A stretch of DNA of 29,977 nucleotides from a virus, in the IMG/VR virus record IMGVR_UViG_3300033571_015411, positions 1 to 29,977 of that record; one strand, written 5' to 3'. Shown one piece after another: positions 762 to 26,998 of the stretch. The notes under the pieces are model-generated. The model saw only the letters and a list, made by a program, of their open reading frames with translations, was not told where the DNA came from and ran no database searches. Numbering within the stretch: the stretch's first letter is position 1; the number at the start of each line of letters is the position of its first letter. The translations under genes were made by a program, and so were the position numbers.

Positions 762-3700
762 CAATCACTCCTTTTTTCGCCGTCTTCGCCCTCGATATCC
801 TCAAGAGCATCGACCATAACTTTGTTCATGTGATCGTGGAAACCGTTCATCCTCTCGTTGTCAAACATGTGAATGAGAATCTCGCCGTTAGGCTTCTGCT
901 CTTTCAACGCCTTGATAGCATCAACGCGCATCTTTTCCAACCGCGCAGATTCAGTCATCGCCTCGTCGAGCGAAATGAACCCATACGGCCAGCCGTAGTT
1001 CAACCGCATCTGCGCTGCCTTGATTGTCGCGTTGATATGGGCTTCGCTTACAAGTGAGTTCCTGATTTCATCTGCAATGTTTGCTGGCAAAGACGACTTG
1101 TAGATGCGTTCGTCATTCTTGATGACGTTGGCTTCGTGACGCATACGGCGTTGCAAAGCCTCCATGTAGGCCATGGAGTCTACAGCGTTAGGCATGAACC
1201 AGCCGACTTCCTTTCCTGCCACATCAAGCGGACTGATTTCTGCGCCATGTACATTTTTGTACACTGGCTTGTCGTTCATAATCGCGCGGACTTGTTCTGC
1301 TGTTCCAGACAATGCGCGTCCAAACGGCATGACAATCGGGACTTCCCTTGTAAAGCCAATGTTCTTGACCTGCAAGGTAGAGGGAAACGTTGCAAGCGTA
1401 AGCGAGCGGAGCGTAGCTTTGGCCCAAGGAGAAATCCCTGGGTCACCAGGCATCGGCATAGAACCTGGGTCGTTGAAGTTCTTGTTCAACCGATCAATTT
1501 GTTGCGACAAGACAGGTCCGTAAACGCCAAACTGGAAGAAGTAATCGCCACCAGACCTGTCAGGGTTGATCTGGTGAAAGAACGTCCTGCCGCCAGTAGG
1601 GTCAACCAGACTCATGTTCAACGAAGACTTCTTGTCGCCGAGCCTGTCTACCCAGGTCTTGGGCCAGCCAATTTCGACAAGCGACCGTTGAACATTGTCT
1701 AGGGTTCCAAGGGGCATTTCTGCAACCGCAGACCGTTGCAGGTGCATCTTGGCCAACCTGCCTTTGTATGCAGAGTCTCCAAAGTCTTCTTGCAAAACAG
1801 CGTGTTCATTTCCTGCACGCAATCCTTGCTGTAGAACGTAAGACATCCAGAGGTTTGGGTCGTTAAGTGCGCGACGGGAGTTCTTGCTCAACTGCCAAAC
1901 ACCGAAATTGAAGAACATCGGGGTTGTGATCAAGGCAAGCGGGTTGTTGGCAATAGCGCGAACAGTAGGGTTGGCTGTTTCATGCCCGTAGATAGACTCT
2001 CTCGTAAAGATTGCTGCACGCTCAGGAGACAAACCAAGTTCTCTTCGCGCCAACGTGTACGACCAGATAGCTCGCTCGCGCTCCATTTTGGCGGCAGCGT
2101 AAGTAATCGCGGTCTGGTGCAGATGCTTGTTGAGATTGGCCATGTATTGAGACGGCCAGATAGTCGGATAGTCAGGGTCGTTGACTCGCAGATCCGATGC
2201 TTTTGCCTGTTCGATTGTCTGATTGATGCGGTTGTTTGCCTGCGCAACTTCGGACGTCAATCTGGCTACTTCTGCAGATGCTGCTTGTTGGGCTGCAACA
2301 TCTTTCTGATTCTTGGCAATTTCTACCTTGCGCTTCTCTTGTAGGATGCGCGTTTCGAGGATCTCAATTTCATGTTGATTCTCAAGAACGACCTTCTCAA
2401 AGTTGCGCGTCTTGCGCGTGTCGTTGAAGGCTTTCCAGATTGCCATCGTGCCGCCGCTGACTGTCTTAGCGTATGCACGGGTGTACATAGCGGCGCGGCC
2501 AGCAGCGCCAATCCTGTCCATGGGATTGGTAGCTTCGACGGTGGCGTTGTGGATGTAATCGCCTGTGCGCTGGACTACGCCACGCATGCTTTGCGGCAAG
2601 TCGTTCAATACCGAAGTCGCGCGAAGGTCGAACCCCTGCTGGATCATTTCTCTCATTTCGGGAGAAAGCACTGCGCCTTCAGGAGAATCGACTGTGCGGT
2701 CAAAGCGGTCAGATGCCGCTTGAACCTCAAGCAACACTTTCTTGCCTTTGCCGCTGTACGGAGTCTGTCCAGTCGCCGCCATTGTAATCAGCGGGTCGTT
2801 TGTCGCGTTTGTCCGCAGGTATCCGTATGAGTTCAACATGGTGTGCGTAAACCTGTTGAACTTCAGTACCTCACCACCCAAGTCTGTGAACACTCGCGCC
2901 CAAGGCTGAGAATCATTAAACTTCTGGACGGCATCTCGCACCATGCCAAGCTGGTTAGCGACATCGGAGCGGATGTACTTTGTTGCAAGTTTGCCATAGA
3001 CAAAGTTGTACGGATCGTCGCTAGCAGCTTGTTTACGATCTGTAACGCGCTTGCTGTATGGCTTTGTGTACCCAGGTCGTGGAGTGTCGGACGTCACACC
3101 AAGGGCAACTAGCTGGTCGGTGATTGCTGCCATGTTGGCCAGGTGCTTGTTGACGTTCATCGCGCTGACAACCGTCATGGCCAAAGCGTCGTGCAGCGAA
3201 ATGTCTCCACGGTTGACCATGTCAGTAAACCGCTCGTTGCTGGACTCTTGCGATAGCCTGCGCTTGAACCGTGAACTCTGTATGACCGTTGCAGCTTTGC
3301 CCAAAGCTGGCGATTCGCTTTCCATCTTGCTGATGAAATCTGCAAGTTTGGAACTCGCGTCTATGGCATCCGTAAACGCACGCGACAGGTACATGTCGTA
3401 TCGCTTTGCGATTACCGCAGGGTCGTAGCCGTAGTTCTCAGCCGCTTCGATAGCGGCCTGGTTCAACAGGTCAACAAGTTGACGGCGAGGCCCACCTGGC
3501 TTGTTCGAAAACGCAGCCAGCGCTTGGATGTGCGCAGGCGCAGTCGGGTTTGCAGCCATGCGCGAAAGCGGTTGAGAACGCAGCATGTTCAGCACGCGCT
3601 CTTGACCCTGCGGGCTGCTGCGCAAATCGTCGATCAGGTTGTTGTACAACTGGAACGTATAGTCTTTGCGCAGTTCACCAAATTCAGGAATGCTGATGTC

Positions 3701-24087: not shown

Positions 24088-24154
24088 ACAACACAGCAAA
24101 AAAAAACAAATCTGGCAGCGGATATAGTGTGTGAGAGGGGCTCGACGTAAAGTT

Positions 24155-24420
24155 TTACGCGCGCGCAACGCACCCGCCCTTATGCGCACCCATACCCGCC
24201 CCTGCGCATGCGTGTATGCGCACCTACGCCCACGTGTGCATGCGTGGCCAGGCGCACATGCGTGCGTGTGTGTGCCCCTGGGCGGATGTGCGCGCGCCAA
24301 GGCGCGCTCTCGCCCGCGGATATGCGCGTGGATGCGCGTATGCGTGCCCGTGCCCGCCCTGCCCTGCCCCGACGCTAACCCCATCCCCTGCCCTCTACCT
24401 GCCCCACCCTGCCCTGCGAT
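24155..24420. other. Alternating purine-pyrimidine (Z-DNA-prone) and C-rich tract
   Basis: About 200 bases are dominated by CG, GC, TG and CA steps (runs such as CGCGCGCG, TGCGCATGCG and GTGTGTGTGC), then grade into C-rich text made of TGCCC/CGCCC units to about 24420. Composition and strand asymmetry differ sharply from the neighbouring genes. Frames that cross it encode only His/Arg/Ala/Pro-type repeats and are not considered genes. Confidence 0.7.
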
Positions 24421-24508
24421 CTCTGGTACCGTGCAACGCGACACTAGCCGACAATTGCTTGTGATATAGATAGCTTGCAACTTTTTTTCGTGACGTTGAA
24501 AAAAGTTC

Positions 24509-24567: not shown

Positions 24568-24604
24568 GCTAGCGCCGGCAAATCGGCGCATCGGAGCCAG
24601 TACC
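24568..24604 (+). promoter_or_regulatory. Leader hairpin (GCGCC/GGCGC type) of the first small gene
   Basis: GCGCCG (24572-24577) pairs with CGGCGC (24584-24589) across the loop GCAAAT, then ATCGGAG forms the ribosome binding site and the ATG follows eight bases later. A 29-base block (24568-24596) is identical to that before the next gene (24833-24861). Confidence 0.65.
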
Positions 24605-24814
24605 ATGATCAACGCTTGCCGCACCCTCTCCATCGTCTGCTACGTTCTCGCTGCTACTTGCGCCATCGCGATTGTGCGTGACTTTGTGTGCCTCGACACC
24701 GTCGGCGCTGCCAACGTCGTCTTGGCGGTCTGCACTATCGCTGCGTGCATCGGACTTGCGCAGCTGTGGTCGCTCGCCACGCGCTGCGAGATCGCCAAGG
24801 CTGCACGCAGCTAG
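24605..24814 (+). CDS. Small two-helix membrane protein (69 aa)
   Basis: The protein has two hydrophobic helices, about 7-24 (LSIVCYVLAATCAIAIV) and about 33-55 (GAANVVLAVCTIAACIGLAQ), separated by a short loop and followed by a basic tail. It should lie in the cytoplasmic membrane. It is the first gene after the rightward promoter, where phages often encode small host-takeover or superinfection proteins. The ATG at 24605 follows a CGGAG site and a conserved hairpin. No family is recognised. Confidence 0.7.
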   Translation: MINACRTLSIVCYVLAATCAIAIVRDFVCLDTVGAANVVLAVCTIAACIGLAQLWSLATRCEIAKAARS

Positions 24815-24832
24815 TCTACGCCCCCCCAACCT

Positions 24833-24868
24833 GCTAGCGCCGGCAAATCGGCGCATCGGAGTCACACC
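24833..24868 (+). promoter_or_regulatory. Leader hairpin (GCGCC/GGCGC type), second copy
   Basis: GCGCCG (24837-24842) and CGGCGC (24849-24854) enclose GCAAAT; the CGGAG ribosome binding site follows and the ATG begins at 24869. The block is an exact 29-base copy of that at 24568-24596, although the genes downstream are unrelated. Confidence 0.65.
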
Positions 24869-25096
24869 ATGGTTAGCCAATTCCGCACTATCCGATCGAT
24901 CGATATTCTGGCAGTCCGGCCGTCTGCAGACGGTACCACGTGGATCGTACTCGCAGCGCGCGCAGCCGATCCACTCCATCCCTGGGCAACCTATAGCGCC
25001 CTGCAGTCTGTAGACGGCGAGACGCTAGAATTGCGCCATCCCGTCTACTGTGTGACCTTGGATTGCGCCCGATCCAGCTATGCCGCGCGCGCGTAG
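24869..25096 (+). CDS. Hypothetical protein (75 aa)
   Basis: I do not recognise this small, probably soluble protein. It has an N-terminal strand-rich part (IRSIDILAVRPSADGTTWIV) and a C-terminus with two cysteines (YCVTLDCARS). The ATG at 24869 lies seven bases after CGGAG and downstream of the repeated leader hairpin, so the start is well supported. It is followed by a gap with three hairpins before the next gene. As an early-region small protein it may act on the host, but nothing in the sequence shows how. Confidence 0.65.
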   Translation: MVSQFRTIRSIDILAVRPSADGTTWIVLAARAADPLHPWATYSALQSVDGETLELRHPVYCVTLDCARSSYAARA

Positions 25097-25111
25097 CTTG
25101 TGCCCTCCATG

Positions 25112-25185
25112 CTGCACACTAGGCGATCGGCTTAGTGTGCAGACTGGAGCGCATACGCTCCCACAATGCGCCTGTAGCGGGCGCA
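25112..25185 (+). promoter_or_regulatory. Three consecutive hairpins in the leader of the cysteine-rich gene
   Basis: First stem: ten perfect pairs, 25112-25121 with 25133-25142, 11-base loop. Second: GGAGCG (25146-25151) with CGCTCC (25156-25161), four-base loop. Third: TGCGCC (25167-25172) with GGCGCA (25180-25185), the shared leader type, followed by AAGAGGG and the ATG at 25198. None is followed by a U run, so termination is less likely than a structured leader. Confidence 0.6.
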
Positions 25186-25197
25186 AGAGGGTACACC

Positions 25198-25947
25198 ATG
25201 AGCCAGATCCTTTATCGTGGCGCGCCGATCGGTGGCGCGTATTCCGGTGGCAATATCCAAGCGCTTATCGCGGAAGCAACGGGCAACGCAAAGACGGGCC
25301 CGGCGCTTACGCTCTGGATCCTGCCCGACACTGCAGACGACGGCCCCAACCCTTGGGCGCTGATCAAGGCTAACGGTAGCGCGTCCACGTGTGGCGATTG
25401 TCCACTGCAGGACGGACGCTGCTACACTCATGCAGGGGCCAGCCAAGTTCTAACCGCTGGCGCTGCGTCGATCGTCAAGGCGCGCACTTGCGATACGGTC
25501 ACACCGTCTAGGCGTGTGCGTCGCGCCAGGTCTGCAGCATTCGGCGACGCTGCAGCGCTGCCCCTGGACGTACTTGAGCGATGGCGATCCATCCGCGCGC
25601 AGCACGATCTTGCGCCACTAGGCTACACGCATGCTTGGCGCACACGTCCCGATCTCGCCGTTGACCATATGGCCAGCGTGGAGACGGTAGACGACGCTGC
25701 GGCAGCGCGCGCGGCCGGCTGGCGTTACTTCCGTGTTCGTCCAGTCGGCTCGCCGTTGCTCGCAGGCGAGATCCAGTGCCCTGCGTCGGCAGAGTCTGCG
25801 CGCGCTAATGCCATCGACTGCAACCGCTGTGGCCTGTGCGACGGCAATACGCGCGGCAACCGTCGCCCTAGCGTATCGATTGAAGACCACGGCGCTGGCG
25901 CCAAGGTCGCCAGACGCGCAGCTAATTCGCTGCGCATCGGAGCCTAG
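25198..25947 (+). CDS. Cysteine-rich phage protein with CxxC clusters (249 aa)
   Basis: The N-terminal part contains ATGNAKTGPALTLWILP and then C65-x2-C68-x6-C75 (TCGDCPLQDGRCYTHAG). The pattern of a TGNxKTG stretch followed by CxxCP and CY recalls a group of phage proteins of unknown function I have seen described, but I cannot name it with certainty. A second group, C194, C208, C211 and C214 (CNRCGLCDG), gives enough ligands for a metal or iron-sulphur cluster. The frame is open to 25135; the ATG at 25198 is chosen for its GAGGG site. The last 30 bases form a hairpin resembling the shared leader element. Confidence 0.7.
   Translation: MSQILYRGAPIGGAYSGGNIQALIAEATGNAKTGPALTLWILPDTADDGPNPWALIKANGSASTCGDCPLQDGRCYTHAGASQVLTAGAASIVKARTCDTVTPSRRVRRARSAAFGDAAALPLDVLERWRSIRAQHDLAPLGYTHAWRTRPDLAVDHMASVETVDDAAAARAAGWRYFRVRPVGSPLLAGEIQCPASAESARANAIDCNRCGLCDGNTRGNRRPSVSIEDHGAGAKVARRAANSLRIGA
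25916..25943 (+). promoter_or_regulatory. Leader-like hairpin inside the 3' end of the cysteine-rich gene
   Basis: GCGCAG (25916-25921) pairs with CTGCGC (25930-25935), followed by ATCGGAGCC exactly as after the leader hairpins at 24572 and 24837. It ends two bases before the stop codon, and no start codon follows at the right distance. It may be a relic or a processing site. Confidence 0.45.
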
Positions 25948-25958
25948 GCTAGACTGCC

Positions 25959-26005
25959 ATCCGCGCCCCGGTGGGCTTGTCGCGGTCCGACTCCGCGACG
26001 CGGAT
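25959..26005 (+). ncRNA. tRNA-like three-way junction, copy 1
   Basis: A seven-bp closing stem (ATCCGCG 25959-25965 with CGCGGAT 25999-26005) encloses a CCC/GGG arm with loop CGGT (25966-25975), a linker CTTGT, and a five-bp arm CGCGG/CCGCG with the seven-base loop TCCGACT (25981-25997). The loop has T, C, G and A at the places of tRNA T-loop 54, 56, 57 and 58. There is no anticodon arm and no CCA end. Copy 2 at 26750 has the same architecture with different paired bases. It lies in the leader of a zinc-ribbon gene. Confidence 0.6.
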
Positions 26006-26007
26006 CC

Positions 26008-26047
26008 GCTGCAATCCTGCAGCACCTTGCGCCAGACTATTGGCGCA
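26008..26047 (+). promoter_or_regulatory. Two hairpins between the tRNA-like element and the first zinc-ribbon gene
   Basis: GCTGCA (26008-26013) and TGCAGC (26018-26023) form the first stem, matching a hairpin in the same place after copy 2. TGCGCCA (26028-26034) and TGGCGCA (26041-26047) form the second, which is the shared GCGCC/GGCGC leader type, followed by TGAGG and the ATG at 26063. Confidence 0.6.
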
Positions 26048-26062
26048 CAATGAGGCTACACC

Positions 26063-26227
26063 ATGATCATGCGTCACCAGTGCCCCCGATGCCTTGCCGT
26101 GCACACTACCGCGCGCGGCCTGTGCCCTTCCTGCAACCGTCGCCAAGCTATCGCCGACGCCGTAGGCACGGCGATCGTGTTCGCCGTCGTCGCCTTGCTT
26201 GGCCTAACCTTGGTCGCAATTCGCTAA
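26063..26227 (+). CDS. Zinc-ribbon membrane miniprotein A (54 aa)
   Basis: The protein starts MIMRHQCPRC and has C7-x2-C10 and C21-x2-C24, a zinc-ribbon or rubredoxin-like knuckle pair, then a membrane helix from about 30 to 53 (GTAIVFAVVALLGLTLVAI). It is a paralogue of the 57-residue protein at 26825, with the same start, cysteine spacing and membrane helix. Topology would place the ribbon in the cytoplasm if the basic residues stay inside. The start is supported by TGAGG seven bases upstream and by the paralogue. Function unknown; a membrane-tethered metal-binding regulator is one possibility. Confidence 0.7.
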   Translation: MIMRHQCPRCLAVHTTARGLCPSCNRRQAIADAVGTAIVFAVVALLGLTLVAIR

Positions 26228-26238
26228 CGTCTACGCTG

Positions 26239-26256
26239 GCGCCAGCATATAGGCGC
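26239..26256 (+). promoter_or_regulatory. Leader hairpin (GCGCC/GGCGC type) of the 90-aa gene
   Basis: GCGCC (26239-26243) and GGCGC (26252-26256) enclose AGCATATA, followed by AAAGG and the ATG at 26268. The 5' half also belongs to the perfect palindrome GCTGGCGCCAGC (26235-26246), so two alternative folds are possible. Confidence 0.5.
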
Positions 26257-26267
26257 AAAGGTATCCC

Positions 26268-26540
26268 ATGACCTACGTTGACCAGTTGATCCGTGCCGTC
26301 CATGACAGTTTCTGGCACAACACGCCGCAGCATATTTACCACTGCCACGACCTCGCAGAGGCGCGCGACGAAATTGACGCCGCTTGGCTCGAGCTGAATT
26401 TGCATCGAGATCGCTTTGACGCCGTCGACACAGACTGGGAAATGGACGGCGACACTATGATCGTCCACGGCTGGACCGACGACGACGCGCGCACCATCCA
26501 GATCCACCTGCACCGTGGGGGTCGCAATGCTGCGTTGTAG
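26268..26540 (+). CDS. Hypothetical acidic protein (90 aa)
   Basis: The protein is acidic and His/Asp-rich (HNTPQHIYHCHDLAEARDEI; TDWEMDGDTMIVHGWTDDDA). The N-terminal half is helical and the C-terminal half ends in two or three strands (TMIVHGW, TIQIHLHRGG). I do not recognise a family. Small acidic early phage proteins sometimes mimic DNA or bind host enzymes, but this is not shown here. The AAAGG ribosome binding site is about six bases before the ATG. Its last 14 bases overlap the next gene. Confidence 0.65.
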   Translation: MTYVDQLIRAVHDSFWHNTPQHIYHCHDLAEARDEIDAAWLELNLHRDRFDAVDTDWEMDGDTMIVHGWTDDDARTIQIHLHRGGRNAAL

Positions 26541-26742: not shown

Positions 26743-26749
26743 CCACACA

Positions 26750-26796
26750 CTGCGTGCCCTAGTGGGCAAGTCCAGGTGCGATCCCTGGTCACGCAG
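26750..26796 (+). ncRNA. tRNA-like three-way junction, copy 2
   Basis: CTGCGTG (26750-26756) pairs with CACGCAG (26790-26796). Inside are CCC/GGG with loop TAGT (26757-26766), a linker CAAGT, and CCAGG/CCTGG with the seven-base loop TGCGATC (26772-26788). Every arm has the same length as in copy 1 while most bases in the seven-bp stem and in the five-bp arm differ and remain paired, so there is compensating change. The loop again has T, C, G and A at T-loop positions 54, 56, 57 and 58. Confidence 0.6.
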
Positions 26797-26797
26797 C

Positions 26798-26813
26798 CGC
26801 TGCATCTGCAGCG
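26798..26813 (+). promoter_or_regulatory. Hairpin between the second tRNA-like element and zinc-ribbon gene B
   Basis: CGCTGC (26798-26803) and GCAGCG (26808-26813) enclose ATCT, the counterpart of the hairpin at 26008-26023. ATGGTGGTGCCATG follows directly and can also fold so that the GGTGG ribosome binding site sits in a small loop next to the start codon at 26825. Confidence 0.55.
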
Positions 26814-26824
26814 ATGGTGGTGCC

Positions 26825-26998
26825 ATGATCATCCGCAACCAGTGTCCCAATTGCCTGCGTGCCCACGCACGCGGGCGCGGCTACCTGTGCCAAGAATGCG
26901 ACGACGCAGCCGCAAGGCTCAACCGCTCGCTCGACATCGGCGCCGTGGTCTATCTCATTCTGGCGGCGCTATTCATCTACGCCTTTGTGCGCGAATAA
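26825..26998 (+). CDS. Zinc-ribbon membrane miniprotein B (57 aa)
   Basis: It starts MIIRNQCPNC and has C7-x2-C10 and C22-x2-C25, then a membrane helix about 37-55 (GAVVYLILAALFIYAFV) and a short charged tail. It is a paralogue of the 54-residue protein at 26063: same N-terminus, cysteine pairs and helix, with one extra residue between the cysteine pairs. The longer open frame starts at 26762, inside the tRNA-like element, so the ATG at 26825 is chosen by comparison with the paralogue. Function unknown. Confidence 0.7.
   Translation: MIIRNQCPNCLRAHARGRGYLCQECDDAAARLNRSLDIGAVVYLILAALFIYAFVRE

Follow-up and report, generated by a model that had tools for sequence, protein, structure and literature searches.

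Short GC-rich hairpins stand just upstream of the ribosome-binding sites (RBS) of five small early genes in an uncultured phage, whose complete IMG/VR record (29,977 bases, analysed as a whole and called the window below) also holds two tRNA-like elements (TLEs) between early genes. The best explanation, to which we assign a probability of about one half, is that these hairpins form the part nearest to the Shine-Dalgarno sequence (SD) in composite leaders on a polycistronic early mRNA, some intercistronic stretches holding a TLE or a long hairpin, then a short hairpin and then the RBS. Host RNase P would recognise the TLE and cut on the 5' side of it, the long hairpin may be a target of RNase III, and the operon RNA would be divided into pieces, each starting with a folded 5' end; the short hairpin would be a compact cap upstream of the RBS, limiting 5' attack or read-in.

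The late genes of the window (terminase, portal, capsid) lie on the minus strand and the small early genes on the plus strand, from about 24.6 kb onward. Named relatives of its terminase and portal are distant only, and the window was compared with the contigs G001 (19.5 kb), G002 (41.6 kb) and G003 (31.3 kb), whose terminases are 99%, 99% and 73% identical to its own, as well as with G004, a fragment starting within terminase. Searches with terminase, portal and E3 led to the same few relatives and to two contigs with a distant E3 homologue, while a portal profile search of genome contigs gave no match. Gene starts in the contigs were taken as those of open reading frames having an SD. The early genes of the window referred to here are as follows:

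24605-24814, plus strand: E1, 69 aa, without a family match
24869-25096, plus strand: E2, 75 aa, 42% to the first early gene in G001 and G002
25198-25947, plus strand: E3, 249 aa, PHROG 2554 (unknown function)
26063-26227, plus strand: E4, 54 aa, CxxC-type protein, paralogue of E7
26268-26540, plus strand: E5, 90 aa, 54-58% between relatives (its neighbour E6, 96%)
26825-26998, plus strand: E7, 57 aa, paralogue of E4

A hydrophobic tail is present in both of the small CxxC proteins, E4 and E7, and each of the two genes has a TLE in its leader.

Five hairpins of the form GCGCC-loop-GGCGC were found where the original prediction had placed them, 11-15 nt before the starts of E1 to E5:

24572-24589, plus strand: hairpin 1, GCGCC-GGCAAATC-GGCGC, 15 nt before ATG 24605 (E1)
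24837-24854, plus strand: hairpin 2, 18-mer identical to hairpin 1, 14 nt before ATG 24869 (E2)
25167-25185, plus strand: hairpin 3, TGCGCC-TGTAGCG-GGCGCA, 12 nt before ATG 25198 (E3)
26028-26047, plus strand: hairpin 4, TGCGCC-AGACTATT-GGCGCA, 15 nt before ATG 26063 (E4)
26239-26256, plus strand: hairpin 5, GCGCC-AGCATATA-GGCGC, 11 nt before ATG 26268 (E5)

The loops had been thought to be all different, which has to be corrected, as hairpins 1 and 2 are identical 18-mers and an RGNNNAT-like loop is common to four of the five. A search of the window for GCGCC-N4-10-GGCGC returned six exact matches, as against a mean of 1.27 in shuffled windows (sd 1.09, maximum 5, none of 100 reaching six); the sixth copy (25222-25238) lies within the E3 coding sequence and is probably due to chance. 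The pattern is also far from equally frequent in shuffled sequence when position is considered: a hairpin lies 8-19 nt upstream of 5 of 10 early starts, and on average of 0.013 starts in 2000 shuffles of the early region (maximum 1). E6, E8 and the later genes are without a GCGCC/GGCGC hairpin, and E7 has a different one. The folding energies of the single hairpins are unremarkable (z from -0.8 to -2.3), so that what makes them significant is their common sequence, their position and their conservation.

The SD lies outside the stem of the short hairpins, and the RBS stretches differ from gene to gene (ATCGGAG, AAGAGGG, CAATGAGG, AAAGG). Thermodynamic folding gave no change in RBS accessibility due to the hairpin (0.49 vs 0.52), so that a simple accessibility role is unsupported. 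Consensus scans gave no promoter of the sigma-70-like type at the hairpin sites (other promoter types being outside the scan) and no intrinsic terminator, the stems having no T-run, and both roles were dropped for the short hairpins.

Hairpins of identical or altered sequence lie 11-16 nt upstream of early starts in G001, G002 and G003; hairpin 3 is kept before E3 in G001 and G002, and GCGCG-GATTAT-CGCGC takes its place in G003. When 19 hairpins were aligned, 98.9% of stem cells were paired, compared with at most 54% when slid; the inner stem pair varies between C-G, G-C and U-A, the middle pair is once G-U, and loop length ranges from 4 to 8 nt among relatives. A covariance model (R1) run on the four genomes containing the early region gave matches of 22-46 bits, all on the sense strand and before early starts. 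Among them is one member that was not in the seed, before the G001 gene at region position 3358, with the stem GCACC/GGTGC (26 bits, E-value of 1.9e-6, rough because of a short calibration), and the next-best match, of 18 bits, lies in late coding sequence. As the hairpin is kept with a varying loop and with paired stem changes, it most likely acts as RNA. The common post-transcriptional signal that had been proposed is thereby supported: pairing is kept, on the sense strand and just upstream of the RBS, without a recognisable promoter or U-tract. The R1 model found no strong match in the unrelated contigs that bear TLEs, so that, although the layout may be shared, the sequence family is specific to the lineage, and in the IMG/VR pattern scan and model search it was seen in this phage lineage only. 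A broad IMG/VR scan with hairpin plus loop was uninformative, its matches beyond the lineage lying in apparent coding DNA, as expected by chance.

A loop G and AT are common to most of these hairpins (RGCANATM; GCTGAT, GGCTAT and GATTAT in G003), their distance to the start is constant and they occur at multiple genes, all of which would be expected if they were operators, with a phage or host protein reading stem and loop and controlling translation of all five genes, the TLEs being a separate matter. We consider this unlikely, since the E3 hairpins of three genomes carry the unrelated loop TGTAGCG, the likeness of the other loops may only reflect the copying of cassettes (identical repeats of 29-40 nt, see below), the SD is not within the stem, and no RNA-binding candidate was identified. 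For an antitermination element of the HK022 put type, in which nascent RNA binds the polymerase and which had also been proposed, nothing specific speaks.

The leaders of E1, E2 and E5 contain the short hairpin with neither a TLE nor a long hairpin. In front of E3, E4 and E7 further structures are present, all on the plus strand:

25112-25142, plus strand: long hairpin, 13 bp, CTGCACACTAGGC/GCTTAGTGTGCAG, E3 leader
25146-25161, plus strand: hairpin GGAGCG-CATA-CGCTCC, E3 leader
25958-26007, plus strand: TLE 1, before E4; acceptor of 5-6 bp, hairpin GCCC-CGGT-GGGC, 7-bp T-stem, loop TCCGACT, 3' TCC
26008-26023, plus strand: hairpin GCTGCA-ATCC-TGCAGC, directly 3' of TLE 1
26749-26798, plus strand: TLE 2, before ATG 26825 (E7); acceptor, hairpin GCCC-TAGT-GGGC, T-stem with one U.U mismatch, loop TGCGATC, 3' GCC
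26798-26813, plus strand: hairpin CGCTGC-ATCT-GCAGCG, directly 3' of TLE 2, 11 nt before ATG 26825

Both TLEs were overlooked in the original prediction, the first lying inside the range that it covered. Folding of the E4, E7 and two G003 leaders gave a three-way structure of 46-47 nt, with a closing stem, the hairpin GCCC-NRGT-GGGC, two bases, and a 7-bp stem with a T-loop. In tRNA, the acceptor and T-stem stack is 7+5 = 12 bp; the window TLEs have a 12-bp acceptor/T-stem stack, a T-loop, a D-like hairpin and a 3' GCC or TCC. The anticodon arm is absent, as there is no room for it between the D-like hairpin and the T-stem. Of 52 parsed TLEs, 28 have a 12-bp stack and most others one of 11-13 bp, with a varying split (5+7, 6+6); most copies outside the window end in R-C followed by G, U or A, and some are without the D-stem. 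The elbow features are well kept, namely GGU in the D-like loop and TNCRA in the T-loop; in the window and in L155, an unrelated contig, A in the D-like loop is combined with G in the T-loop, and elsewhere G is combined with T or C. These loop sequences suggest that the two loops make an elbow contact. At the E3 gene, the window has the 13-bp long hairpin in the leader and the orthologous leader of G003 has a TLE, as if two processing signals had been swapped.

ARAGORN called no tRNA in the window, Rfam 15 gave no family at gathering score in the window or the early regions, and in the TLE loci it gave only a real tRNA-Gln and a hammerhead, neither of them at a TLE. No TLE, those of the named phages below included, had a gathering-level Rfam match. 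Decayed tRNA genes as the source of the TLEs were ruled out because of covariation, the constant 12-bp stack and the placement of one per gap.

The TLE is found well beyond this lineage. Pattern scans in which the D-like hairpin and the T-loop were fixed returned 12 and 29 stretches of viral contigs; the outer T-stem and the closing stem had been left free and therefore test the structure, and they were paired in nearly all stretches, the closing stem being shifted by one base in one contig group. The second pattern, applied to 257 Gb of genome contigs, returned 16 stretches, nearly all unpaired. In an ungapped alignment, two-sided changes were present in 12 of 17 TLE pairs, with 93 cells as against at most 39 when slid; alignments fitted by the covariance model lean to the structure. 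A covariance model of the TLE picked up further copies, outside its seed and scoring 34-61 bits, both in these contigs and in Gordonia phage VanLee, the best chance match in 853 kb of other viral contigs being 20.6 bits. Searches by blast with two TLEs led to Gordonia phages VanLee, ObLaDi, Octobien14, Morgana and others, at sites that are unannotated. No TLE match above about 18 bits was obtained in ten further phage records that had been selected by similarity of protein or DNA.

The arrangement is most regular in the leftward operon of VanLee, where all 16 gaps of 78-184 nt hold one TLE on the sense strand, mostly 26-48 nt upstream of the start, and a 362-nt gap near the operon head is without one. 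T-stem positions 1-6 are paired in 15-16 of the 16 copies, and at least 10 of these TLEs are followed by a hairpin, its sequence differing from gap to gap, and then the RBS. One VanLee TLE, extended to 91 nt, was called a tRNA-Val by ARAGORN. In Mycobacterium phage Indlulamithi, TLE matches occur in 11 gaps, some of them partial, and two TLEs of this phage match tmRNA weakly and in part (25.6 and 14.5 bits, cut-off 47). In the VanLee announcement one tRNA is mentioned and no intergenic repeats are (PMC8320454), and we found no earlier report of such elements in open papers.

Some neighbours of TLEs and of E3 homologues were recorded in passing. A type II hammerhead ribozyme (Rfam, 54.7 bits) lies at 613-678 on the minus strand of L155, about 240 nt upstream of the TLE of that contig and on the same strand. 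In L192 (an Azoarcus MAG), a TLE-like structure at 1323-1448 has a tRNA-Ala gene directly after it. In L144 (Caulobacter phage S2B), a long hairpin with paired stem differences is repeated at 1107-1203 and 1959-2056, preceding the E3 homologue and the next gene, with the SD inside the 3' arm.

RNase P is known to cleave model hairpins made of acceptor, T-stem and T-loop, and also some phage RNAs and mRNAs (PMC11143913), with a 3' RCC pairing with GGU of RNase P RNA (PMC12710915). The model hairpins and the TLE are alike in the 12-bp acceptor/T stack and the T-loop, and in part in an RC(C)-type 3' end (PMC11143913), and on paper the TLE looks like a minimal substrate of RNase P. Many TLEs end in RCG, RCU or RCA rather than RCC, and some have no D-stem, which counts against the RNase P reading. 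Other substrates of the enzyme include phage M3 RNA, the P1/P7 C4 RNA, the 3' tRNA-like structures of plant viruses and acceptor/T-arm hairpins (PMC11143913); unlike these, the TLEs, as putative substrates, are repeated between the cistrons of phage operons and have no anticodon arm.

The tRNA-like domain of tmRNA has an acceptor, a T-arm and a D-like loop and is likewise without an anticodon arm. The TLE differs from tmRNA in having no tag reading frame or other tmRNA parts and in being internal to mRNA. The early mRNA of phage T7 has RNase III sites between cistrons, and cutting of that kind ahead of RBSs would lead to the outcome proposed here. The only candidate for a T7-type site in the window is the long hairpin at 25112-25142, the short hairpins (5-8 bp) being below the length needed for RNase III. 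The processing site that had been suggested originally gains support, which comes from the adjoining TLEs and the long hairpin and not from the 5-bp hairpins. The likeness of the TLE to minihelix substrates, together with the exchange of long hairpin and TLE at E3, favours intercistronic processing with the short hairpin as an RBS cap.

More tentatively, at a little under an even chance, we propose that the intercistronic tRNA-like elements are a widespread family, so far undescribed, through which host RNase P cuts operon transcripts into pieces in many unrelated phages, with a hairpin and RBS directly behind each cut. Small-gene operons of phages have regular gaps, and should the TLEs prove to be sites of RNase P, an enzyme of tRNA processing would act as a general factor in phage mRNA processing. 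The TLE covariance model makes annotation of these elements possible, and gives a reason for gene boundaries and for gene exchange in early regions.

The kept elbow features (GGU and TNCRA) and the many copies per operon would also suit a mimic that captures tRNA-binding proteins, whether as a decoy against tRNA-targeting defence or as a translation aid, in place of a cleavage site. We think this quite unlikely, as the intercistronic placement, with one element per gap in VanLee, and the swap for a long hairpin at E3 fit processing better.

The position of the short hairpins recalls several start-associated repeats of actinobacteriophages. SAS/ESAS of cluster K mycobacteriophages also stand just upstream of the starts of many unrelated genes and comprise an inverted repeat with a variable spacer and an adjoining RBS (PMC3203893). 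However, SAS consists of an asymmetric 13-mer of fixed sequence at the RBS, whereas the RBS stretches here vary by gene; the ESAS arms are 17 bp with RNA pairing unsupported (PMC3203893), whereas the arms in the window lineage stay complementary. The 18-bp repeats of Microbacterium cluster EG and the 17-bp repeats of cluster O are similar in lying in short gaps, 14-22 bp upstream of starts, but in EG the repeat is of a single fixed sequence and its arms are 2 bp apart (PMC7302621), and the stem and loop of the short hairpins vary without loss of pairing. CR3/CR4 of cluster M mycobacteriophages are found between many small operon genes, with stem-loops upstream (PMC7953290); the likeness is by description, the TLE model giving in cluster M phage Diminimus T-arm-sized partial matches only, all outside the right end. 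Judging from the alignments, what sets the short hairpins apart from these repeats is RNA pairing kept through sequence change. A role of the palindromes as DNA operators bound by a dimeric repressor, as with stoperators or the start-associated inverted repeats, would be in keeping with their EG-like position (PMC7302621) but is improbable, as the arms are 4 to 8 nt apart, a range more in line with RNA than with a dimer site of fixed spacing, the stem changes in pairs with one G-U pair among them, and every copy is sense-oriented and before a start.

The hairpin-RBS units, as repeated cassettes, are also junctions for the gain and loss of early genes. At two loci, the alignment of G001 with G002 breaks and then resumes inside hairpin cassettes: at the first, G002 carries one extra gene between two hairpins, and at the second, two extra genes lie between E4 and E5 in G001, and each of them has a hairpin of its own. 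The identical repeats of 29-40 nt span the hairpin, the RBS and only a few bases upstream, so no promoter travels along. The PeSL cassettes of T4-type phages are likewise stem-loops where genes shuffle, as far as the citing account describes them, but they consist of an early promoter and a terminator stem-loop (cited in PMC4503421), neither of which was found here by consensus scan. A reading in which the units merely hitch-hike as recombination cassettes, alike by gene conversion and having no function except that of a good RBS, would account for the junctions but has little probability, since loops and flanks vary around a stem that is kept, and paired changes are seen both in G003 and at the G001 gene at 3358.

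Between the divergent operons of the window, a tract rich in alternating purine-pyrimidine sequence (GCGTGCGTGTGTG) occupies 24150-24360 and is unaligned between the window and G002; it is followed by an inverted repeat, AACTTTTTTTCGTGACGTTGAAAAAAGTT, at 24479-24507.
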